A stretch of 64,000 bases of DNA from contig CM057136.1 of assembly GCA_029964075.1 (NCBI GenBank), positions 6,510,001 through 6,574,000 on the forward strand, in the 5' to 3' direction. The notes below the pieces were generated by a model that did not search any database, was not told the DNA's origin, and saw nothing but the letters and a program-made list of their open reading frames with translations. The DNA is from Patiria pectinifera (Eukaryota > Echinodermata > Asteroidea > Valvatida > Asterinidae). Numbering within the stretch: the stretch's first letter is position 1; each line of letters begins with the position of its first letter. This document shows, piece by piece, positions 1,637 through 62,659 of this stretch. Made by a program: the position numbers and the translations under genes.

Positions 1637-2155
1637 TTTCATTTAGCAACTGCAGTGTGATGTTTACACATACATACGTAACACGTTTAATTATTTTAGT
1701 CAGACGCAGTAACTTCAATTTAACCCAACATATTACAGGTGTATTATTGTTTTACTCCAATATTAGGATGGGTGCATGTATATTTAATAGCAGTTTTATC
1801 TTCCTAAGATAATTTGACGTTTATTTCGTTTGATAGAATCTACAACTAGACAACTACTAAATTGATGTCCATCAAGGTACTAGCCTAAGAAAATCCTGAC
1901 CAATATTAACATAAAAATTGTAATTTAAGCATTTTGCATTTAAGCAATTTCCTACTACGAGTGAATTTCATTGAGCAACTGCTGTGTGATGTTTACACAG
2001 ACAGACGTAACAAGTTTAATCATATTAAGACGCAGTTATTTCATTTTCTCTTACTAAAAGTTTAAGATGCTCAACTAATAACATAGTTTGGTAACTTTTT
2101 TTCGCAATTGTAAGTATGAGTGAATGTATAACATCAGTTTTATCTTCTATAGATT
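1637..2155. repeat. Pair of diverged direct repeats (~180 bp each)
   Basis: The block starting near 1637 and the block starting near 1965 share a common order of motifs: GCAACTGC, GTGTGATGTTTACACA, ACGTAAC, AGACGCAGT, then CAGTTTTATCTTC at their ends. They look like two diverged copies of one repeat. No gene is visible here. Confidence 0.5.
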
Positions 2156-2344
2156 CTTCGGTACGAAGGGAAAGTGATCACGTTATTATCTTTAAATAAA
2201 TTTACTGGACATTGTTTGTACAGTTCTGGTGGCTGGAAATAAATATGGCGAACAGCATGGTGGCAAAATATAGAATCCTGTCCTTCGTAAGTCCTTTTGG
2301 CCTTATGTTCCCATGTGTGACGTTGAAAAGGAATGTTAGTATAA

Positions 2345-2519
2345 GTAGAGGAAGCGGCAGCAGCACCAGCAGCAGCAGCAGCAGCACAAGCAGAAGCAGC
2401 AGCAGCACAAGCAGAAATAACAGCAGCAACAGCAGCAGCAGCAGCAATAGCAGCAACAGAAACAGAAACAGCAGCAGCAGCAACATTAGCAGCAACAGAA
2501 ACAGAAACAGCAGCAGCAG

Positions 2520-2551
<32 letters not shown>

Positions 2552-3118
2552 ACAGCAACAGCAGCTGTTGACAGTGGCAGCAGAAACAGCAGCAGCAGTA
2601 GAAGAAGAAGCAGAAGCAGCAGCAGCAGTAGCAACAACAGCAGCAGCAGCAGCAGCACCAGCATCAGAAGCAGCAGCAGCACCAGCTGCAACAACAGCAG
2701 CAGCAGCAGTAGCAGAAGCAGAAGCAGCAGCAGCACAAGCAGAAGCAGGAGCAGCAACACCAGCAGCAGCTGTTGACAGCAGCAGCAGCTGTCGACAGCA
2801 GCCCCAGAAACAGCAGTAGCAGAAGCAGCAGAAGCAGCAGAAGCAGCAGCAGCAGAAGCAGAAGCAACAGAAGCAACAGCTGTAGCAACAGCAGCAGCAG
2901 CAGTAGTAGCAGCAGAAGCAGAAACAGCAGCAGCACAAGCACAAGCAACAGCAGCAGCAAGAAGCAGGAGCAGCAACAGCAGCAGCAACAACAGCAACAG
3001 AAGCAGCAGAAGCAGCAGTAGTAGCAGCAGCAGCAGCAGAAGCAGCAGAAGCAGAAGCAGCAAAAGTAACAGCAGCAGCAGAGCAAGAAGTAGCAGCAGC
3101 AACAGCAGCAGCAGCAAT
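2345..3118. repeat. Long imperfect AGC/CAG trinucleotide repeat (~775 bp)
   Basis: Almost every triplet is AGC or a one-base variant (AGA, AAC, AGT, ACA). This produces very long stop-free frames on both strands rich in Ser/Asn, Ala, Leu or Cys, which are artefacts of composition. The only frame that would encode polyglutamine on the plus strand is broken by TAG triplets, for example near 2599 and 2629. I therefore call it a microsatellite/minisatellite, not a gene. It can form CAG-type hairpins. Confidence 0.85.
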
Positions 3119-3400
3119 AGGTACGACATCGGCTGCGACATCGATTCCACAGTCTACTCGTCTGCAGACATCCTACGACCTGTAGGGCTCGCCCTATCGA
3201 CTTTCGGCCAACAAGACCGTGTGTGGCGGAACGAATACCTCGGGGTCTGCTCATAAGTCCGACGCCTCCTAGGTCCGACGCCTTATAAGTCCGACGGCTC
3301 ATAAGTCCAACCGCCGTTAGTTCGTAGACAACCTCGCGGACTTGAAACGTCGTAATTGTTTTTTTTAATCTCGTTGTTACAACTGATAATGTAGTAACCA
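3119..3400. other. Low-information stretch with short AAGTCCGACG repeats
   Basis: Between 3251 and 3320 the decamer-like motif ATAAGTCCGACG occurs about four times with small changes. The rest of the stretch has no supported gene or RNA. Confidence 0.4.
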
Positions 3401-20407: not shown

Positions 20408-20640
20408 ATAGGCAATACATTTAAAACAATTAGTCCGCAACCAATCTAAGTAATATCCGCAGTACAAGTACATGTAAACATTTGGTCTGCAACACTGTTT
20501 TTAGAAAAAAGGAGGCCTCAACTTTTTCTAAGAAAGCAGTTTCTCCTCAACATCATTATTAAACCATTTCATTCAGTCTGCAACACATTGGAAACAATTC
20601 AGGTGCTTCCATGAATCTCCTAGAATTTAAAGGGAATATA

Positions 20641-21144
20641 CATCATTTGCTTTTGCTGTAATTGTCAGAAATGGATGGAATTGGGGGGTTGGGAATATAA
20701 ATCAAATACAGTTACACTGACTTTTTTGAGGTTTTGGGATCGAAAATGCTATAAAAACCAAGAAAAACAATCATTTTTCTGTAGTCTGGTTCCCTGACTC
20801 CATTTAAAAAGAAACAGAGCAGTTTACATATATTGGGAAATTGTAAGGTCAGGGAACCAGTCTAGCTGGCTTGTACCCGTTCATAGGTGTGTAATCGATT
20901 GCAAACAAGTGCGACGGTCAACTGGGGACAGTATTTGAAAAAAAGCCAGTTTTTTCCAACGCTGATCGGCTGATCAGCGTTGGAAATTGATACAAAAATA
21001 CCACTTTTCTTGAAAATGACAGTATACCAGGTGCCATGAATTTACAGGATGCTTTACACTGTCATTCACTAACAGTCCAGCAAGGTATTTCAAAATGATT
21101 TGGTAGTTTTATTTTTTGATGTTTGCAAATGATGTATCTTCCCT
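20641..21144. mobile_element. TTAA-targeting DNA transposon (family 1), 504 bp
   Basis: Ends AGGGAATATACATCATTTGC and inverse GCAAATGATGTATCTTCCCT, flanked by TTAA (20637-20640, 21145-21148). Inside is a second inverted pair, TAGTCTGGTTCCCTGAC / GTCAGGGAACCAGTCTA, and the hairpin at 20956-20983. TTAA duplication points to a piggyBac- or Kolobok-type transposase acting in trans. Other copies: 41280-41782, 61814-62339 and a 5'-degraded one at about 47910-48363. Confidence 0.85.
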
Positions 21145-21148
21145 TTAA

Positions 21149-37694: not shown

Positions 37695-38300
37695 TGTCAG
37701 TCACGATGAAATTGCCCTACTGTGGAAAACTAACATTCAAGAAAATTACTTCGGGAAAGTTTCATTCAGAAAATTACACATGTACTGTGGAAAAGCGACT
37801 TAATAACAAATACATGTAGTTTGGAAAATTGACATTTTCTTTGATGGACAATAGTTGTCTTATCATAGTTTACAACTTACAAGTATATATGCATACATTC
37901 GTGTACACGTTTAAACAAGTACATGCATCAATTCGCATGCAATTTTCCATATAGAATGTAATTGCCCTGCACACTGTTTCTATAATGGTGGTTTTAGATT
38001 TAAAGATTAAGTTTTTTTCACTCTCCTCACTGACCTTGATCCATGACAGGTGGATGACTTGCAGTGTGGGGTGTTGGGGAGTGGGGGGAGCCAAGGACAT
38101 CCGCTAGATTTTGAAATAAACATGAGACATTAAAATGTACATCAAAAACGCTTGTGAATGTCGGGTTCCTACTGTAGTGTGCGTTTACTACGGTACCTAC
38201 CGGTACTAACATACATGTACATGTACTAACAATTGCTATATAGGAAAACTGACATTCAAGAAAATTAATTTGGGAAAGTTTCATTCAGACAATTACACAT
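37695..38300 (+). repeat. Repeated module, copy 1
   Basis: A unit starting about CTGTGGAAAACTAACATTC, with ATGGACAATAGTTGTC, GCATGCAATTTTCCATATAG, CTCACTGACCTTGATCCATG, and GAATGTCGGGTTCCTACTG in order. It contains a pyrimidine tract followed by CATGACAG|GTGGATGACTTG on the plus strand, and reading the other way ATCAAG|GTCAGTGAGG, so both strands show splice-like signals at the same point. Other copies: 39429-39840, 51481-51855, 58406-60240 (four in tandem), and shorter variants at 40780-41070, 52100-52590 and 62820-63175. Confidence 0.8.
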
Positions 38301-38357
38301 ATACTGTGGAAAAGCGACTTAAAAGCAAATAGTTTGGAAATTGACATTTTCTTTTAA

Positions 38358-39424
38358 CCCTAACGTACCTAAATCCATCAAAATCCACCCCCTGTTTCGG
38401 GGGATTTCGGCGGATTCAGGATACCTCCATATTAAACAAACTGGGGGATTTTGATGGACTTAGGATTCGAAGCCTAGCGGAACTGGCAGATTTTGATGGA
38501 TTCAGGATACCTCCATTTTGAGCTATTGGGGGACTTTGATGGATTCAGGATCTTAACAGTTTAACTCTTTTGCAATGTTTGTGGTCAAGTAAGTACTGCT
38601 GGCACTAGCCCTGCCAATTCTGTCACATACTGTACAAACATGTACACACATGTACTCGGTGGACTTGCATGGAGGGTCACGTGCTGGAGGAAAGATACAA
38701 ATAATGCGCGAAAACGTGACGAACGCAACGCCGTTTGCGCGCAAAGAACACCATGTGCATCGCTAATAATTATCTGTGCACATCGCGTAATACTCGGTGC
38801 GCATTTCTTGCTTCGCGCGTGTTTAGCTAGGTCACGTGCTGGAGGAAAGATACATTTAGCTCCATTACTTTACGTTAATTTGTTGCGCGTCTATGAGAGA
38901 CAACCAAAATAGCGAGATTTATCGCACAGTGACTGGGCGCGTGTGGACGCGCTGCCGATCTAGTCTTTTCATTCTATATCTATGGTTTACGGGCAGAAAC
39001 ATGCGCTAATGTCTTTCACACAAATTTTGTGCGCGAGACGTATTCACTTCGGTACTGATCCATGCTGGGGTTGCCATGCATTGGTGTATTTTGACGGATT
39101 CTATGCAACAACACACATCACAATTTTCATGCGAGCATGGTATCCTGAATCCGTCAAAATCCACCAGAAAAAATGGATTTTGAAGACTCTATGGAAAAAC
39201 ATGCTGTATTTTTTTTTATGCCACCATCATTGACCATGGTATCCTGAATCCGCCAGAATCCATCAAGACTTTTGCTGGTGGATTCTGGCGGATTCAGGAT
39301 ACCTCCAGAATCTACACTGGGGGACTCTGATGGATTCAGGATACCAGCATTTTTTGCATGACAAAATTGGTGGATATTGGCGGATTCAGGATACTTTCTA
39401 GTAAAAGAGCCCCAGGAGTTAGTG
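38358..39424. mobile_element. TTAA-targeting element (family 2), piggyBac-like ends
   Basis: Flanked by TTAA (38354-38357 and 39425-39428), beginning CCCTAACGTACC and ending with an altered GGAGTTAGTG. Subterminal zones consist of many degenerate copies of GGATTTTGATGGATTCAGGA and ATACCTCC in both orientations. The same element with an intact right end is at 41787-42902. CCCTAA ends with TTAA suggest piggyBac-type mobilisation; no transposase is encoded. Confidence 0.8.
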
Positions 39425-39428
39425 TTAA

Positions 39429-40582: not shown

Positions 40583-41275
40583 TAATTGGAAGAAAACAGG
40601 TTTTTTTTCTCTTCAGTTTTAACCATGGGGGGGGGGTGGAATCCCCCTCCCCCTCCTGCTGTGAGGTGGTGAAAATTCAATGTAACCCGGCTCTTTTAAG
40701 GTTAAGCCTAGTTTAAAATTAAAACAAACAAAAACAAATTTTCTGTGAGTACCCCTTACGTAGAATGTACCATACATTTGAACAAGTACATGTTCACGTA
40801 TAGCCCTTACAGTTCAGAATCCCATAATTTTAATATCATTTTGCACACTCTAACATGTACCTATTGGCATGCAATTTTCCATATTGCTGTGCACTAGTAC
40901 TGTTTCTAAGATTAGATGGCAGTTTTAGATTTGAAGATGAAGTTTCTTCAATACATGTACATGTACTCTCCTCACTGACCTTGATCCATGACAGGTGGAT
41001 GACTTGCAGTATGGGGTACATGTTTGTATGCTGTTGGAAAAGAAAAGAATGAAAACTGGTACATGTAAGTATTAACATTAAGTCGTACAATAGGCTATAG
41101 ATTGCAGTACATGTACATGTACATCGTTATCTATAGAAACATGTTTGAAGCTGGGGTACGTTATTCATCATTTCATGATGTAATGTTATTGCTGATCTAC
41201 ATGGAAACACTTCACTTCAGACAAATTTCAAGTCATGTACATGTACATGTTCAGTCGACTCTTAAAGCACTCCAC
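40583..41275 (+). repeat. Segmental duplication block, copy A
   Basis: Matches 51934-52800 (copy B) and 62660-63390 (copy C) in the same orientation. Landmarks are TTCAGTTTTAACCAT, CCCCTCCTGCTGTGAG, ACCCGGCTCTTTTA, CTCACTGACCTTGATCCATG, TGGGGTACATGTTTGTATGC and TAGATTGCAGTACATGTACA. It includes the shorter module variant, whose candidate exon (GTGGATGACTTGCAGTATGG onward) ends ACAT|GTAAGT. Confidence 0.85.
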
Positions 41276-41279
41276 TTAA

Positions 41280-41782
41280 AAGGGAATATATACATTATTT
41301 GCTTTTGCTGTATTTTCAGAAATGGATGGAATTGGGAATATAGCAAATATAGTTACACAGACTTTTTTGAGGTTTTGGGTTCGAAAATGCTATAAAAACC
41401 AAGAAAAACAATCATTTTCCTGTAGTCTGGTTTCCTAACTCCATATAAAAAAACCAACAGTTTACATACATTGGGGAATTGTAAGGTCAGGGAACCAGTC
41501 TAGCTGGCTTGTACCCATTCGTAGGTGTGTAATCGATTGCAAACAAGTGCGATGGTCAATTGGGGTCAGTATTTGAAAAAAAGCCAGTTTTTTCCAACGC
41601 TGGTCGGCCGACCAGCGTTGGAAATTGATACAAAAATACCACTTTTCTTGAAAATGACAGTATACCAGGTGCCATGATTTTACAGGATGCTTTACACTGT
41701 CACTCACTAACAGTCCAGCAAGGTATTTCAAAATGATTTGGTAGTTTTATTTTTTGATGTTTGCAAATGTTGTATTTTCCCT
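41280..41782. mobile_element. TTAA-targeting transposon (family 1), back-to-back copy
   Basis: Starts AAGGGAATATATACATT after TTAA at 41276-41279 and ends GTATTTTCCCT before TTAA at 41783-41786. That right-hand TTAA is also the left flank of the family 2 element. Carries the hairpin at 41594-41621. Confidence 0.9.
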
Positions 41783-41786
41783 TTAA

Positions 41787-42902
41787 CCCTAACGTACCTA
41801 AATCCATCAAAATCCACCCCCCTGTTTCGGGGGATTTCGGCGGATTCAGGATACCTCCATATTGAACAAACTGGGGGATTTTGATGGACTCGGGATTCGA
41901 AACCTAGCGGAACTGGCGGATTTTGATGGATTCAGGATTCGAAGCCTAGCGGAACTGGCGGATTTGATGGATTCAGGATACCTCCATTTTGAGCTATTGG
42001 GGGACTTTGATGGATTCAGGATCTCAACAGTTTAACTCATTTGCAATGTTTGTGGTCAAGTAAATACTGCTGGCACTAGCCCTGCCAAGTCTGTCACATA
42101 CTGTACAAACATGTACACACATGCACTAGGTGGACTTGCATGGAGGGTCACGTGCTGGAGGAAAGATACAAATAATGCGCGAAAACGTGACAAACGCAAT
42201 GCCGTTTACGCGCAAAGAACACCATGTGCATCGCTAATAATTATGTGTGCGCATCGCGTAAATACTCGGTGCGCATTTCTTGCTTTGCGCGTGTTGAGCT
42301 AGGTCACGTGCTGGAGGAAAGATACATTTAGCTCCATTACTCTACGTTAATTTGTTGCGCGTCTATGAGAGACAGCCAAAATGGCGGAGATTTATCGCAC
42401 AGTGACTGGGCGCGTGCGGACGCGCTGCAGATCTAGTCTTTTCATTCTATAGCTATGGTTTACGGGCTGAAACATGCGCTAATGTCTTTCACACAAATTT
42501 TGTGCGCGAGATGTATTCACTTCGGTACTGATCCATGCTGGGGTCGCCATGCATTGGTGTATTTTGATGGATCATCTGCAACAACACACATCAAATTTTC
42601 ATGCGAGCATGGTATCCTGAATCCGTCAAAATCCACCAGAAATTTAGGTGATGGATTTTGAAGACTCTATGGAAAAACATGCTGTATATTTTTTTATGCC
42701 ACCATCATTGACCATGGTATCCTTAATCCGCCAGAATCCATCAAGACTTTTGCTGGTGGATTCTGGCGGATTCAGGATACCTCCAGAATCTACACTGGGG
42801 GATTCTGATGGATTCAGGATACCAGCATTTTTTGCATGACAAAATTGGTGGATATTGGCTGATTCAGGATACTTTCCAGTAAAAGAGCCCCAGGAGTTAG
42901 GG
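41787..42902. mobile_element. TTAA-targeting element (family 2), complete copy, 1116 bp
   Basis: Begins CCCTAACGTACC and ends GGAGTTAGGG, flanked by TTAA at 41783-41786 and 42903-42906. Interior closely matches 38358-39424, including CGTGCTGGAGGAAAGATACA twice and GTGACTGGGCGCGTG. Subterminal repeats of GGATTCAGGATACCTCC. Confidence 0.9.
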
Positions 42903-43028
42903 TTAAAGAGAAAAAAACAACATTTAGGCTGTATCCGCTGAGTTAATTTGTATTATAAATGAGAGTTGATGGTACAAATATCATTATTTTGTACATAATA
43001 TGCTATTATGTATGTTTACTGTACTAAC

Positions 43029-46000
43029 CTCCATCCATTTCTAGAAGCCTTTTGCCAACTTTTGTGATGGCTTCTTCAGCAAGAGGGGCCTGGTATATGT
43101 TACTATTGACCAGTGCTGAGTGGCCCATGTGTTTATAGAAGAGTGACCTCTCAGACTGAGGAACATCAAGAGAGGCGTAGATTGTGCTCCCCCGGTGGCG
43201 CATTTGTGTTGCTGTTATTCTGTCTGGAGCCTTCAGGTTCACCATGGAGCACACTTTTTTTACAGTGTGCCAGCCGGATATGTGATTCCCAGACTGTAGT
43301 GTGCTAGGAAACATATATCTGTTGCTGGGATTTATTCCAGCTGTGTTCCTGGCCTCCTTGCTTCCAATGATGGCCATGGCTGCCTGGCAGTCTGTTGGGA
43401 AAAGCACTGGGACGAGGTGGTCGTTGCCCTTGCCAGTTTGATATGTGATTTTCATTTCTGAAAACAACTGTTGTTCCACCTCGTCCACAGGATGGAACTT
43501 TTGACTGCTCAACCATGAGCCCGCCTCAGCCTCCTCCCACTCCCTCAACAACAAGCGAGCAGGCTCTCCACCTCTCCTGAAATTGAACATTGTTATTCTG
43601 CACGCTACCAGGTCTCGAAGCTTCACAAAGTCATGAGAATCCCAAAAGGTGAATTTGTCTGAAGTCATCTTGTGAATTTCATTGACTGTAAAGTCTCTGA
43701 GTGTCTTGATGTCCTGCTCGAGTGGGAGTTGTTCAGGTTTTCTCAGTTTTACCTGTCTGTGATTGTTTAGTTGGTAGGTTGCATCTCCAAAGATGAAGTT
43801 GTGATGGAGGTCTAAAACCTGGACGAACTTTTCAACTTCATCTGCATCTTTATCCCTGCTTTGTATGAGGTAAGTCCCTTTAACGATCTTAGCGGTTGTC
43901 TTCAGCAGATAAAAGACTGCATTTTTCAACCCTGCTTTGATTCCAGAGCCAGGACTGTCTTTGATGTTGCACGTGTAGTCAGTGATCGACTCCTGTAGTG
44001 TGTCAAATTGCTCTCGATCAAGCATATCAGCTGCTGTTCCAGTACCTTTGACTGGTTTGTCAAGTTCTGCATTCTTTTGGCGAAAGACAAGATACAACGA
44101 ACCAAGTCGTCTCATGTCCGATCGAACTGACCTCTTTACTTCAGCCAGCTTGTCTTGTTTCCTTTTCATTTTGTCATATAGACGCTGCCCAACCATACAA
44201 ATTATGGCATCATTGCAGCACAAGTTACCAACAACATCGTCTCTCAATCCACTGAGGATTTCATCCTTAAAACTATCCCTTACCAAATCAGGCAGAGGCT
44301 GGAGCAGAGAGGTGGAAACTGCTTTGGCACTTACTGATGTCTCCTCGGGGCAATAAAGCCTATGACTCCAGAAGTATCTGCGGCTGTAAAAACCATGGCA
44401 TTTGCCACACATTACAGTTGAAGATGGGTACTTGGTTGTCTTCTGTTGAAGGAGCTTGTCTTTGTTGTCATTGGAACTTTGCAACACTTCCTTGTTGTAC
44501 TTGTAGATGCCATCTAATCTAAGCTTCTTAAATTCGGCCGTTTGTTCCTGTTTTGGCAGCTCTGCAATGGCTTTCACTTTTTCATCGTTTTTGTGTTTTG
44601 CAACAATGTGGCGTTTCAGTTGGGTTTGGAATACACCGCAATAGGGGCAGGGTCTTGCAGGTTTCATCTTTCCTATTTTAAGAAAGAAAACAGTCTCATT
44701 TTTAGTTACCAGAATTACAAATTTAGACTTATTCTGCAGTTTGCCAAAACTTGACATGTGTATACAAAATAACATTTCCAAAGCAGCATTTATTAAGGGA
44801 ATAAATGTGTGCTCCGGAGGTTTTATCACTCTGTTTAATACCACTTAGAGTCTGGGTGCTGATAATTACCCGAGCCGGAGGTGAGGGTAATTATCAGCAC
44901 CCAGACTCTAAGTGGTATTAAACAGAGTGATAAATACCGACCGAGCACACATTTATTCCCATTCATAAATACCTTTTCGGTAAAAAAAGATCAAACAATT
45001 CGTTCAAAAAATCCTGATTTTGTTCAGCAAGTTCACTTCATGCTTTTTGAAACATCCCTCTAGCAAAATAATGGAATGTTCAGCTGGCGAGTAAGATGTA
45101 AACAAGCCTTTTATGGAGATTGACGCGCGCGTAGCATGTTCTGCGCGACATGGACGCGATGTCGCGCGGAACGCACCTGGGTCGTTGCGTTTTGAATTTA
45201 GAACTTTAAAATTCTGACTCCCTGGTAGTGTTGCGCATGCCTACGTGAGGACTGTGAACGTTCAACCAATAAAACGGTAAGAGGCACTGGATTTTTAGGA
45301 GTCCACATTTTATGTGACTCTGGAAAAGTGTTATAAGACCAGCTAGCCATGTCTTTATCATCCGTTTAAGACCGGCCACGTGACGGGCTCTCGACCAATA
45401 GGAATAGCTAAACTGTCTGAGGTATTTATGAATATGGGATCATAGGCATCAATACATTACCTAAAGAAAACAATAACAATGTCAGTGAACATTCGATGTG
45501 ACCCAGGTAATTTGATGTAATTAATAGAGTGGTGTTATGTCATGGAAATAAGCATGGTTGCGGGGCATTTGTGGTTTTTAACACTACTTTACTTGTTTTG
45601 TGAGCATTTGCTAGAAGAAAGATAGATATCAGCATGGTATGCACGGTGATATAAAAACTGTCGGGGTTGAAACATTTAATGCATAGCAACACAGCAGTTT
45701 TGTATGTGCCAAAAGTTGCAATTTTTATTGTTTCAAACTGTTGACCTTATCCTTCCCCCCCCCCCCCAACGATGTGAACAATATTTTCTTTTCCAAAGCT
45801 TACATAATCAGGCATGCAACTTTTCCTCGGATCAGCTGATTTCCTCTTTTTTTTTCACTTCCCATGTGTGCCATTGAAATTAGAAAACACTGTACAAAGT
45901 CATGGAAAGATTTGAATTTCCTCTTTTTTTGTAAGCTCCAGTTGCATGCCTGCATCATGAGATATTTATTTTTTTTCCGCAAGTTAAGATGTTTCCACTC

Positions 46001-47909: not shown

Positions 47910-48363
47910 TCTATGATATGTGTGATGTAAGCATCTTGTAAAATTATGGCACCTGGTGTGAAGTCATTTTCAAGAAAATGGTATTTTTGTATACATTTCC
48001 AACGGTGGTCGGCCGACCACCGTTGGAAAAACCTAACTATTTTTCAACTACTGCTGCAAATTTAACATTTTTTTTCAGTCCAAATTTTGTTTGCTATTGG
48101 TTACATGTTCATAAACGGGTGCAGGCCAGCTAGACTGGTTCCCTTGCCTTACAATTTTCCATCATCTATAAACTGATCCATTTTATCTTTTGTGGAGTCA
48201 GGGAACCAGACTACTTGAACATTTTTGTTTTTCTTGGTTTTTCCAACCTTTTCGAACACAAAACTTCAAAAATGTCAGTGTAACAATATTTGATCTATTA
48301 TACTAACCCCTCAAATAGTTCATTTCTGAAAATTACAGCAAAAGCCCATGATGTACATTCCCT
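47910..48363 (+). mobile_element. TTAA-targeting transposon (family 1), left end degraded
   Basis: Right end TGATGTACATTCCCT followed by TTAA (48364-48367). Shares CACCTGGTGTGAAGTCATTT, CCAGCTAGACTGGTTCCCT and GAGTCAGGGAACCAGACTA with 61814-62339. The left AGGGAATATA end is not recognisable. Carries the hairpin at 47999-48026. Confidence 0.75.
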
Positions 48364-48367
48364 TTAA

Positions 48368-49094
48368 AAGTATAGAGGTTTCTCAACCCAAAATACATTT
48401 TTCTAAGTTATTTATTTTCTGAAATTCAAATGTAATGTATGTAACATGGTGTCCCGTTTGTGCTGTAACAACAGTTATGAGGTTGATAACTTGTGACATG
48501 TGATATGCGTTGACATTAGTCAGTGAGCCCAATACTTGAAATATCGACCTATTTGAACCAGGACTTCGGACCATAGAGAAATGGCCAGTTGGTTAATGTA
48601 CTGAAAGACTCCATTACAAACGCGGTACAAAATGTACAGAAAACGCTTCAAATTTTGCTGTTGGTGAATTTTAGTTACTAAATGTTATATTGCAATCTAT
48701 TTGTCATTTGAAGTATAGAAATGTGCTATAACATTGTACATACCATATTGGGAGATATGTATTAAACATTAATGTCATAATATTTAACGTACGTCCACAA
48801 AACATGTAAAACTGCATAAACCACAGTGACCATGGTGACTTATGGAATAGGCTAAAAATGAACATTGAAGTAAAGACTCTATACATTTGCAGACTTAGTA
48901 ATCAAAATATGATGTAAAATGAAGCCTAATTTAAAAATTCCCATTTAGCTGTAACGTACATGTATGTAACATTTGTCAACCATGCACCTACATGTACATG
49001 TAGTCTTAATTTATATTTGAATGTTATGATTTGTGAATAGTACAAGATGTATTCATGGGTAGCTTCACTTCAAATATATTTTAAAGCGAATTGT
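48368..49094. other. Intergenic stretch, no supported gene
   Basis: AT-rich with TACATGTA words. No coding or repeat feature recognised. Confidence 0.35.
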
Positions 49095-50385: not shown

Positions 50386-51480
50386 TGTCCACAAATACAT
50401 TTCTAGTTTAAATTTGCTTCACTCTATGTAGGAGGAAAAATGGAATGTTACGTATGTAACAATTGGACACCAAAATGATTTTTGTTCTTAACGTGAATTT
50501 TTATACATGGAAAGCACATGGAGACGATAATTTAAAAGAAAAAATAACATGTCCTAACTGCTGATGGTTCACAATCACTCCACTTTCAATCAGGACATGT
50601 CTGTTTTCAGTTGTTGTTATGCCCATGTTACGTTTGTTACATATTGGACACCAAATGTTACAAACATTAGTTGTCAAAAAGAAGTAAAATAGATAACAGT
50701 TTATCAGGAAATAGAAGAGTTCTAACCCCTTATGTTGCATGTCACATTTTTGGTCTCTTTCTTTGTGCGCTATTTTCACACCAAATAACTGATGAAAATT
50801 AATCCCCATGTCCAGTGGTCATAAAGTTATCTCCTTTATATCTCTCACTCTATATGCAGATGAGAAAGCACTAAAAAGACCAAAATGTAACAGGAAGGTT
50901 ATTCATTCTGGATCCAACTTTCTCATCCCAAAATCTCTCCAGTATCAAATACAAACACACATACAAAACAGTCAAACTTGGCACACACTTAGACCACCAT
51001 CTTAAGATTCAGGTCGAATCATGACGTCATCATAACGTCATCCTCAATTCTACTTTTTTATTACTGGTGTATTACTGATTTATTACTGATTTATTACCCA
51101 CAGTGCCTTGCGGCCTGCCTGATATGCGGCGCTCTGCAAATTTTCTCAGTCTTTCCTCAGCCATTTTTTATAGCTAAGTTCTTAGTTTTATTAAACTTTT
51201 TGTCTTTAATTGTTGTTTCTCCAAGTTGCAGTTGGGTCATTTTTTGGTAATGTTTCTTTGGTCGTTTACGGGTACTTTGCGGGAGTGAGTCCTCGCACAG
51301 CACAGGTTGCCAGTCACTCACTCCCTTACAGTATGAGACTGTGTGCCTGAGGCTTTGCACAGGTTGCAAGTAGCTCACGCCGTACCCATCTAGCGAGGCT
51401 TCGCACAGGTTGCAGGCTGCTCGCTTCCCACATGTACATGACCACAATTTGCATTCAAACCTATTAAAATCCATTTTTTT
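50386..51480. other. Stretch with one diverged CRE unit and short internal repeats
   Basis: One more TGACGTCATCATAACGTCAT site lies near 51021. At 51280-51435 the phrase GCACAGGTTGC(A/C)AG recurs three times. The minus-strand frame 51157-51474 runs over these repeats and is not recognised. Confidence 0.4.
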
Positions 51481-51933: not shown

Positions 51934-53655
51934 TAATTGGAAGCAAACAGGTATTTTTGTCCTTCAGTTTTAACCATCAGGGGGAGGGGGGGGGGCAGAA
52001 TCCCCTCCCCCTCCTGCTGTGAGATGGTGAAAATCAATATTACCCGGCTCTTTTAGGGTTAAGCCTTTTTAAAATTAAAAAAAAAAAAAAATCAATATTC
52101 TGTGATGGACAATAGTTGTCACATCTTTGTTTACAAGTACCCCTTATGTAAAATGTACCATGATACATTTGTACAAGTACACGTATGGCTAGCCCTTACA
52201 GTTCTGAATCCTCCAATTTTAATATCATTTTGCACACCCCCTAACATGTACCCATTCGCATGCAATTTTCCATATATTGCTGTGCACTAGTACTGTTTCT
52301 AAGATGCAGGCATGCAACTTTTCCTCGGATCAGCTGATTTCCTCTTTTTTTTATTCCCATTTCTGTCATTCAAAATAGAAAAAACACTGAACAAAGTCTT
52401 CTGAATTTTCGAATTTCGAAGTTGCATGCCTGAAGATGGCGGTTTTAGATTTGAAGATGAAGTTTCTTCAATACATGTACATGTACTCTCCTCACTGACC
52501 TTGATCCATGACAGGTGGATGACTTGCAGTATGGGGTACATGTTTGTATGCTGTTGGAAAAGAAAAGAATGAAAACTGGTACATGTAAGTATTAACATTA
52601 AGTCGTACAATAGGCTATAGATTGCAGTACATGTACATGTACATCGTTATCTATAGAAACATGTTTGAAGCTGGGGTACGTTATTCATCATTTCATGAAT
52701 ATGTAACATGTGTAATGTTATAGCTGATCTACATGGAAATACTTCACTTCAGAAATATTACGCAAATTTCAAGTCATGTACCGGTACATGTTCAGTCAAC
52801 TCTTGTTAATATACAAATTCTGGATAAATAACCAAAATAAATTCTTCGTCTTGACTGTGCATTTACATGTACTAGTGCAGTGCCCTTCTAAAATGTGCAT
52901 GTTCGGGAAGTGCAAACTGCTTTGCCGCTGGTATTTGTTGCATGTTTGCATAGTTTTTGAGAACTGCTCGTGCAAACAATGCATGCGATTCAATGGTGTT
53001 GTTTTCACAGGTTGAACACACACTCACGTCAAAGTTTGTGCCAAGTTTGAAATTGTTTGGGCGAGTGGTTCTCGAAAAAGCTGCAAAAAAATAGCGCAGA
53101 TATTCACCCCTACTGGACAATGATGGCATCGCCCTGCAGTAAGGTTGCTCAGTCGGCATGGTCGGCCGACCGCCTACAATGGTCGCTCAGTCGACTGCAA
53201 AAATAACATGCCCATGCAGCCACCACATACGTGTACATACCGAAACATGGTATGCAGTGCAGCTATTCACCCATACTGGACAATGGTAACGCCCTACAAT
53301 GCACGTGCGCAAGCCCGTCCTTTTTGCATTGTTTGCGTCATATTGAGCAAGCGCGCTTTGGCTTAAACATGACGTAAACAATTGAGAAGAACATTATTGC
53401 ACAGTGTTCTAGGCTATACACTGGCACATTAGCCCGCAGAAAATATTACTTTTTTGAAACTTTTTTTCGAGAACCGCTCATCCCAAAAAACTCCAAACTT
53501 GACACTGCACAATCAATATCCCCATCATTTTCAACTTCATACGGTGCCCGGTTCTGGAGATAATCGATGGACAGACAGACACACAGAGATTCCTGGAATT
53601 ATATGTAGTAAGGACAAGGAATGTACACAATGAACGGGACAAGCACTCCACTTAA
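51934..53655 (+). repeat. Segmental duplication block, copy B
   Basis: Nearly identical to 62660-64000 (copy C), apart from the hAT at 52307-52432, which copy C lacks, and a 42-base stretch near 53031-53072 missing in copy C. Overlaps copy A (40583-41275) in its first part. Contains a Cys-rich 42-codon frame on the plus strand at 52892-53015 in both copies, which is preserved simply because the copies are young. Ends GCACTCCACTTAA, the empty TTAA site. Confidence 0.85.
52307..52432. mobile_element. hAT MITE, 126 bp, exact 6-bp target duplication
   Basis: Ends CAGGCATGCAACTT and inverse AAGTTGCATGCCTG, flanked by AAGATG on both sides (52301-52306, 52433-52438). The duplicate at 63019 region reads TCTAAGATGACGG with a single AAGATG, i.e. 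empty. Confidence 0.92.
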
Positions 53656-53783
53656 AGAGAAAAAAACAACATTTTATTTTAGGCTGTATCCGCTGAGTTA
53701 ATTTGTATTATAAATGAGAGTTGATGGTACAAATATCATTATTTTGTACATAATATGCTATTATGTATGTTTACTGTACTAAC

Positions 53784-58405: not shown

Positions 58406-60240
58406 TTCTGTGGAAAACTGACATTTAAAAAAAATTACTTCAGGAAAGTTTCATTCAGACAATTACACATGTACTGTAGAAAAGCGACTTAAAAACAAAT
58501 AGTTTGGAAAATTGACATTTTCTTTGATGGCATATGGACAATAGTTGTCACATCATTGTTTACAACTTACAAGCATGTATGCATACATGCGTGTACACGT
58601 TTAAACATACATACACGCATCAATTCGCATGCAATTTTCCATATAGAATGTAATTGCCCTGCACACTGTTTCTATAATGGTGGTTTAAGATTTAAAGATT
58701 AAGTTTTCTTCACTCTCCTCACTGACCTTGATCCATGACAGGTGGATGACTTGCAGTGTGGGGTGTTGGGGAGTGGTGGGAGCCAAGGACATCCGCTAGA
58801 TTTTGAAATAAACATGAGACATTAAAATGTACATCAAAAACGCTTGTGAATGTCGGGTTCCTACTGTAGTGTGCGTTTACTACGGTACCTACCGGTACTA
58901 ACATACATGTACATGTACTAACAATTGCTATATAGGAAAACTGACATTCAAGAAAATTAATTTGGGAAAGTATCATTCAGACAATTACACATGTACTGTG
59001 GAAAAGCGACTTAAAAGCAAATAGTTAGGAAAATTAAAATTTTTTTTGATGGACAATAGTTGTCACATCATTGTTTACAACTTACAAGTATGTATGCATA
59101 CATGCGTGTACACGTTTAAACAAGTACACGCATCAATTCCCATGCAATTTTCCATATAGAATGTAATTGCCCTGCACACTGTTTCTATAATGGTGGTTTT
59201 AGATTTAAAGATTAAGTTTTCTTCACTCTCCTCACTGACCTTGATCCATGACAGGTGGATGACTTGCAGTGTGGGGTGTTGGGGAGTGGGGGGAGCCAAG
59301 GACATCCGCTAGATTTTGAAACAAACATGAGACATTAAAATGTACATCAAAAACGCTTGTGAATGTCGGGTTCCTACTGTAGTATGCGTTTACTACACCC
59401 CTACCGGTACTAACATACATACACGTATCAATTCGCATGCAATTTTCCATATAGAATGTAATTGCCCTGCACACTGTTTCTATCATAGTGGTTTTAGATT
59501 TAAAGATTAAGTTTTCTTCACTCTCCTCACTGACCTTGATCCATGACAGGTGGATGACTTGCAGTGTGGGGTGTTGGGGAGTGGCGGGAGCCAAGGACAT
59601 CCGCTAGATTTTGAAATAAACATGAGACATTAAAATGTACATCAAAAACGCTTGTGAATGTCGGGTTCCTACTGTAGTGTGCGTTTACTACGGTACCTAC
59701 CGGTACTAACATACATGTACATGTACTAACAATTGCTATATAGGAAAACTGACATTCAAGAAAATTAATTTGGGAAAGTTTCATTCAGACAATTACACAT
59801 GTACTGTGGAACAGCGACTTAAAAGCAAATAGTTAGGAAAATTGACATTTTTTTGATGGACAATAGTTGTCACATCATTGTTTACAACTTACAAGTATGT
59901 ATGCATACATGCGTGTACATGTACACTTTTAAACATGTACATGTAACAATTCGCATGCAATTTTCCATATAGAATGTAATTGCCCTGCACACTGTTTCTG
60001 AAATGGTGGTTTTAGATTTAAAGATTAAGTTTTCTTCACTCTCCTCACTGACCTTGATCCATGACAGGTGGATGACTTGCAGTGTGGGGTGTTGGGGAGT
60101 GGGGGGAGCCAAGGACATCCGCTAGATTTTGAAATAAACATGAGACATTAAAATGTACATCAAAAACGCTTGTGAATGTCGGGTTCCTACTGTAGTATGC
60201 ATTTACTACGGTACCTACTGGTACTTACAGGTACTTACAA
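58406..60240 (+). repeat. Four tandem copies of the repeated module
   Basis: Modules at about 58406-58925, 58926-59400, 59400-59720 and 59721-60240. Each has the CTCACTGACCTTGATCCATG / GTGGATGACTTGCAGTGTGG junction and AAATAAACATGAGACATT, which includes AATAAA. The third is shortened at its left side. All show strong mutual identity. Confidence 0.88.
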
Positions 60241-61157: not shown

Positions 61158-61302
61158 CTTAGGCCCATTAATTTTGCCCAAACCGTGCCCAAATTTGTGA
61201 TAAGAGCATGAAGTACAGCGTGCAGATCATCAAAACGGCCTGAGAATCATTTTAAGAGGTTGGCAAATTTGGGCACGGTTTGGGCAAAAACAGTGGGCTT
61301 AA
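61158..61302. mobile_element. Short inverted-repeat element
   Basis: TTGCCCAAACCGTGCCCAAA (61173 region) is inverted as TTTGGGCACGGTTTGGGCAA (61267 region). The middle (CATTTTAAGAGG inverse) resembles 21618-21690. Confidence 0.65.
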
Positions 61303-61711
61303 CCCTAACTCCCTAGGCCTTTTTGCTAGGATGTAGCCTCAATCCTGCAAAATCCTCCAATTGGCCTCATGGAAAAATAGCATATAGCCTCAATCCTGCA
61401 AATTCCTCCCCTATTTTTTTGAATAGGGTCAATGGAGGGGTGACCACTGCCTGAATCCTGCAAAATCCTCCGGCTATGACTGTCAATAGGCTGAGGCAGA
61501 GGCAGTGACATCCTGGAGCAATGCGGAGGTTGTCAAGTATAATCAAGGGCTAAATTTATGCATGGCTGAGCATAAACAACACAAGGTCCGGCCCAAGACC
61601 TTCACACAGTGCGTACTCCGAAATCAGCAACGCACTTTTGCCATGTAACCTCAATCCTGCAAATTCCTCCAATTTGCAAAAAGGATTTTGGAGGATTCAG
61701 GGCGGTTAGGG
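61303..61711. mobile_element. TTAA-targeting element (family 2 relative), 409 bp
   Basis: CCCTAACTCCC at the left and GGCGGTTAGGG at the right, flanked by TTAA (61299-61302, 61712-61715). Interior repeats CCTCAATCCTGCAAAATCCT four to five times, echoing the GGATTCAGG repeats of the larger elements. Confidence 0.8.
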
Positions 61712-61813
61712 TTAAGAAGCTCTACTATTGACCAGGATATATACATGTACGTGTACATTTGTGTACAGTATATATAGAAACATATATAAATACAATCTTA
61801 AACTCATTCTTAA

Positions 61814-62339
61814 AGGGAATATACAACATTTGCAAACATCGAAAAATAAAACTACCAAGTTTTTACAAAATACCTTTACTAGGATGTTGGTAAATGACAG
61901 TCTCCAGCATCTTGTACAATTATGGCACCTGGTGTGAAGTCATTTTCAAGAAAATGGTATTTTTGTATACATTTCCAACAGTGGTCGGCCGACCAGCGTT
62001 GGAAAAACCTAACTATTTTTCAACTACTGCTGCAAATTTAACATTTTTTTCAGTCCAAAGGTTATTTGGTATTGGTTACATGTTCATAAACGGGTGCAGG
62101 CCAGCTAGACTGGTTCCCTTGCCTTACAATTTTCCATCATCTATAACTTGATCCATTTTATCTTTCGTGGAGTCAGGGAACCAGACTGCTTGAACATTTT
62201 ATGTTTTTCTTGGTTTTTCCAACCTTTTCGAAGACAAAACTTCAAAAATGTCAGTGTAACAATATTTGATATATTATACTAACCCCTCAAATAGTTCATT
62301 TCTGAAAATTACAGCAAAAGCCAATGATGTACATTCCCT
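61814..62339. mobile_element. TTAA-targeting transposon (family 1), 526 bp
   Basis: Ends AGGGAATATACAACATTTGC and inverse TGATGTACATTCCCT, TTAA on both sides (61810-61813, 62340-62343). It interrupts the right arm of the foldback; the fragment at 21795 shows the joined empty sequence TTCTTAAGTTACTTTG. Confidence 0.9.
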
Positions 62340-62659
62340 TTAAGTAACTTTGTCCGACTCTTTTCCGTTCTTAAGTAGCATTTTTGGTATCAGGGGGTCA
62401 ATCTCAACACTTAAGTCCAAACTGGCGCTTGTGCGTGACATGTTAAATAAACTCAAAATTTTGGACACTTGACCATGGTCCCCTGACCACCATCCAACCT
62501 AGGGCAACTTAAGAATGGCCATTTCGGAACTACCCCCCCCCCCCCCACGGGCAATCGATTGGTACGATCAAACCTTTTGTGCTCAAATTGTTAATGAAAC
62601 TCAACCAAGATCTCAGTCTAACATACCAGAAACCGGAGACTTTTTGGGGGGGGGGGCCC

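Follow-up and report, generated by a model that had tools for sequence, protein, structure and literature searches.

Adjoining MITEs with Kolobok-type and piggyBac-type ends at one TTAA site in a local array of Patiria pectinifera

Among the elements inserting into TTAA, T2-MITEs from Xenopus and the Kolobok superfamily are outlined as combining a TTAA target with AGGRR termini and RR/YY ends (PMC6004289; PMC9587614), and piggyBac elements as combining a TTAA target with a CC[C/T]T terminus and a TIR of generally 12-19 bp (PMC2872659). In the outline given of the coral CMITEs, which are about 100 bp long, a locus was reported with and without the element and, in the case of CMITE-IN, a CMITE landed in the TTAA of another element (PMC2872659). 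Within the Kolobok superfamily, the composite-like KolobokP elements are summarised as abutting units with long terminal direct repeats, coding sequence, TSDs of 3-5 bp and no strong target specificity (PMC9587614).

In the window considered here, i.e. the whole stretch of 64,000 nucleotides that was analysed, two elements of these two types, E1 and E2, stand side by side at a site designated A. As far as the outlines in PMC6004289 and PMC9587614 go, E1 resembles T2-MITE/Kolobok elements in its TTAA target, AGGGA for AGGRR, RR...YY ends, multiple copies and the absence of a long frame; unlike the Xenopus T2-MITEs, it resides in another genome and carries a perfect palindrome, the likeness being one of ends. 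Compared with the CMITEs as outlined in PMC2872659, E2 likewise has TTAA, CC[C/T]T and no long frame, and its locus too is found with and without the element, but it measures about 1.1 kb instead of about 100 bp and has a TIR of 7 bp and internal subrepeats. As in CMITE-IN (PMC2872659, in outline), one TTAA element appears to sit in the TTAA of another, whereas A brings together two superfamily types side by side and nothing suggests their joint movement. With the KolobokP elements as summarised in PMC9587614, the locus has in common the Kolobok superfamily and abutting units; none of the other KolobokP properties listed above was seen here. Among the titles and abstract openings of a limited selection of literature matches, no published account of this locus or of paired Kolobok/piggyBac-type insertions was found.

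The filled site and its two element families

The features of the filled site are as follows.

40926..41262: left flank beyond an indel, homologous to the empty copies B (52446-52804) and C
41265..41275, + strand: left flank common to the empty sites, AAGCACTCCAC, 11 bp
41276..41279: first TTAA, the left target-site duplication of E1
41280..41782, + strand: E1, 503 bp, T2/Kolobok-type ends (AGGGAA...TTCCCT)
41783..41786: second TTAA, common to E1 and E2
41787..42902, + strand: E2, 1116 bp, piggyBac-type ends (CCCTAAC...GTTAGGG), with internal subrepeats of the GGATTCAGGATACC type
42903..42906: third TTAA, the duplicated target site to the right of E2
42907..44351: flank on the right, with homology to empty copies B and C

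Read directly in the sequence, site A (41265-42922) runs AAGCACTCCAC-TTAA-E1-TTAA-E2-TTAA-AGAGAAAAAAACAACA, that is three TTAAs for two elements, and the order CCAC-TTAA-[family 1]-TTAA-[family 2]-TTAA given in the preliminary description of this DNA is found at these very positions. At the left edge of E1 stands one extra A (TTAA-A-AGGGAA), explicable as the subsequent gain of one base within the A run. Among the 34 distinct E1 loci outside the window, the left edge reads TTAA-AGG in 32 and has a changed TTAA in the other two, and the right edge reads CCCT-TTAA in 31.

On these ends, i.e. a TTAA target duplicated on both sides in A, AGGGA termini (AGGGA...TCCCT) of the 5'-RR...YY-3' and AGGRR kind and a TIR of about 20 bp, of which 18 of the 20 terminal bases of the family consensus pair by eye, E1 is assigned as a putative MITE with T2/Kolobok-type ends, a superfamily label absent from the preliminary description. 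Genome-wide, 1643 candidates were returned, and of the best 40 scored, the 39 besides A lie at 93-94%. The window itself holds two full copies with 92% mutual identity plus two relatives at 75%, the members other than the one in A being:

20627..21148, + strand: second E1 copy, TTAA on both sides
61810..62343, - strand: diverged E1 relative (75%), TTAA on both sides
47929..48368, - strand: diverged E1 relative (75%), only one of its ends located

No frame of at least 120 aa lies in the interior of E1, or in that of E2, among the listed open frames of the window. The palindrome of E1 is a perfect 34-nt inverted self-match around CCAACGCTGGTCGGCCGACCAGCGTTGG (41591-41624) and is 91-100% conserved among the copies scored.

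Regarding E2, the target is TTAA and the termini are CCCT at both ends, in the A copy as in the consensus, with a TIR restricted to the 7 bp CCCTAAC; since this falls short of the 12-19 bp of the superfamily, E2 is designated by its piggyBac-type ends and not as a full member. Of 29 loci fetched, 16 have one alignment reaching both ends; two of them, L014 and L019, have the same flanks and probably represent a single insertion, leaving 15 independent loci. In these 16 copies TTAA is present 16 times on the left and 15 times on the right, and deviant ends are limited to CCCC on the left in 2/16 and a changed right end in 1/16. Two copies with 92% identity are found in the window, and some 30 further places with complete or partial matches elsewhere (the 40 best of 4489 candidates scored in a search with E1 and E2 together), E1 and E2 being apart at most scored places.

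38354..39428, + strand: second E2 copy, inserted alone and flanked by TTAA at either end

This second copy occupies one unit of a local repeat, whose empty units lie at 37775-37904, 58464-58594, 58986-59109, 59794-59916 and 66643-66766 (the last beyond the window). All five of these full-length units have TTGA, not TTAA, at the insertion point, one of them with 6 bases added after it, and a partial unit at 51472 has TCGA; the target of this copy may thus have arisen beforehand by a change from TTGA to TTAA. Besides, an element of about 409 bp with E2-type ends (TTAA-CCCTAAC...GTTAGGG-TTAA) lies at 61299-61715, separated by 94 bp from the TTAA that borders the E1 relative at 61810, and on contig C1 of the assembly (G000) the sequence TTAACCCTAAC often forms convergent pairs about 387 bp apart among the first 100 listed places. 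A short piggyBac-type family seems to be abundant in this genome.

Empty relatives of the site in a local array

53641..53671, + strand: empty site B, 31 nt identical to the flanks of A when joined, containing one TTAA (53652-53655)

When E1 and E2 are removed in silico, A equals B (AAGCACTCCAC-TTAA-AGAGAAAAAAACAACA) over 31 nt with 0 mismatches, and the exact match grows to 34 nt under an alternative placement of the following gap. The stretch 53648-53667 reads CCACTTAAAGAGAAAAAAAC, the duplicate with a single TTAA that had been pointed out beforehand, and the excision proposed then as a check thus restores the site exactly; of the further statement that both insertions are clean, the restoration holds and the extra A at the left end of E1 has to be subtracted. 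The match is not due to chance, since exact copies of the 15-mer AAGCACTCCACTTAA in the window are confined to A and B and both elements belong to repeated families.

A third local copy, C, is likewise empty and lies just past the end of the window, 10.6 kb downstream of B (AAGCACTCCAC at window-equivalent position 64201); removal of both elements from A also restores C exactly. A whole-genome search with the empty site returned five places, i.e. B, C, A (the part beginning with the TTAA and extending to the right), a more distant relative D and a partial place at 75% that begins right of the site and therefore has no bearing on its state. D, on contig C22, is about 83% identical around the site and 78-83% identical to A and B over longer stretches; it is empty, reading AAGCAC-CCAC-TTAA-GGAGAAA, with a left flank one base short.

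The immediate left homology between A and B extends over 11 bp only before an indel, beyond which it resumes: 836 bp of B (52805-53640) are absent from A, and C likewise holds bases that A lacks there. Between the left flank and the site, D has bases common to B and C and missing in A, and the four sequences suggest that A has lost roughly 85-90 bp on the left side of the site. A tract of about 750 bp (52871-53620) is present in B and C and absent from A; as it is absent from D too, it looks like, and is probably, another insertion in B/C. The left flank of A (40926-41262) differs from that of B (52446-52804) by 5 substitutions in 337 with 3 gap events, and B from C by 0/359. On the right, a 6-bp indel separates A and B 16 bp past the TTAA, and 2/280 differences near the site give way farther out to 86/1031 with 10 gap events. 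The contrast between near flanks (7/617) and distal flank (86/1031) is marked (p=1.5e-11) and suggests that conversion has acted patchily between copies. A simple segmental duplication, as first described, was discarded in view of the diverged copies and the 836-bp indel; what had been called the duplicate is indeed a paralogous empty copy, yet it belongs to a set of three or more local copies that have diverged, differ by indels and show mosaic identity.

Proposed origin, polarity and timing

In all likelihood, the pair results from two ordinary TTAA insertions, of the E1 MITE and of the E2 MITE, the later one into the TTAA duplication of the earlier one. Lying 3' of a low-copy open reading frame, a TTAA would have been hit twice, independently, in copy A of the local array; each element would have entered TTAA by cut-and-paste, duplicating it, with Kolobok- and piggyBac-superfamily transposases as the presumable movers, and the later arrival would have entered a TTAA left by the earlier. 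Use of the first element's duplication by the second, rather than both having arrived otherwise, is suggested by the three TTAAs, by the two families being TTAA-flanked elsewhere and by the empty relatives, in support of what had been proposed from the sequence at the outset. Since all three relatives spanning the site (B, C and D) are empty, the filled state appears derived and the empty state ancestral, as judged from four sequences; the earlier view that insertion took place after the duplication or on one side of it gains from the empty B and C and from the unlinked outgroup D. The phenomenon is an ordinary one, and the site clearly preserves the traces of clean insertion, a self-documenting case in which two superfamily types share one 4-bp target, with three TTAAs and three empty relatives giving polarity.

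As to which element came first, a small sample (9 E1 rows, 16 E2 rows) gave private substitutions of 16/501 in E1 against 14/1065 in E2 (p=0.016), whereas with a larger sample of 38 E1 rows, including two repeats of the same loci, private changes were 11/501 against 14/1065 (p=0.20) and consensus distances 18/501 against 21/1065 (p=0.08). The order E1 first, E2 second appears slightly favoured, short of significance.

Alternatively, both insertions could predate the local duplication, B and C having lost both elements by excision leaving no footprint. piggyBac elements are known for precise excision, in the outlines given in PMC2872659 and PMC7351741, and E1 is farther from its family consensus (18/501) than the nearest flanks of A and B are from each other (7/617), so that a simple clock would date E1 before the A/B split. 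This mismatch may reflect flank conversion or an older source copy, and the distal flanks, at 86/1031, fit insertion after the split. Against such early insertions stand also the unlinked outgroup D, which is empty and has the near-site bases found in B and C but missing in A, and the larger number of events required, among them the exact excision of a Kolobok-type element; the scenario is judged improbable.

Abutting pairs across the genome and neighbouring sequence

The arrangement at A is not unique; it arises repeatedly as a by-product of two families being abundant and sharing a target. The exact junction TTCCC-TTTAA-CCCTAAC was counted 61 times over 613.5 Mb (control 0), the sequence TTCCCTTTAA 23,619 times in the genome (control 3,754) and TTAACCCTAAC 12,149 times (control 503). 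With about 4.26 million TTAA sites, extrapolated from the density in a non-random sample of 164,201 bases, and the two sides of a TTAA taken as independent, about 34 Kolobok-type/piggyBac-type junctions are expected (26 to 48 at 30% density error), so the 61 exceed this rough estimate by a factor of about 1.8; E1-type/E1-type junctions number 83 in the sequence count against about 33 expected. The null is crude, density being uneven along the genome, and for this reason a moderate landing preference is a possibility only: that the edge TTAA of a resident element is a preferred landing site across two unrelated superfamilies, with pairs above chance, is a tentative and rather doubtful proposition. 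With 61 exact junctions, it becomes countable whether further TTAA elements are drawn to a transposon's own target-site duplication.

These junctions also bear on whether E1 and E2 form a single composite that transposed as a whole in one insertion, in which case no difference would be expected in the outer TTAAs or the empty site. In keeping with that, such junctions recur in the genome, and one further E1 locus (L032, 1 of 34 and itself among the 61) adjoins an E2 relative; this partner is, however, a short relative of about 390 bp attached by its other end, and both elements were joined in one match only in the window (best 40 of 4489 candidates scored). Sixteen of the 61 junctions were fetched and 15 are readable on the E1 side (L090 is cut at the junction): E1-family sequence adjoins in all 15, by its right end in 6 and by its left end in 9, and the partner is E2-like in only 7 of the 16, the remainder having the CCCTAAC end only. 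The outer ends of the pair at A, besides, are of two different TIR types. With partners varying among the fetched junctions and E1 and E2 mostly apart at the places scored, the composite transposon was rejected as highly improbable. Least credible of all is an assembly artefact or haplotype mixing in the filled copy, since, even though the evidence comes from one assembly, it is countered by TTAA at 3/3 borders, family members elsewhere and private substitutions in both elements.

Regarding the neighbourhood, an open frame of 606 aa (43024-44844, - strand) adjoins the site, and a genome query reaching its last part returned five places. A Pfam search with this frame gave a sub-threshold match only and a PDB sequence search gave none. 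Its C-terminus (MRHRGSTIYASL...HMGHS...Y) is reminiscent of a tyrosine recombinase, and cysteines of a zinc-finger-like kind occur in the N-terminal part. Farther away, a long low-complexity tract at 2140-3256 is open in several frames, with poly-Leu, poly-Ala and poly-Ser readings.
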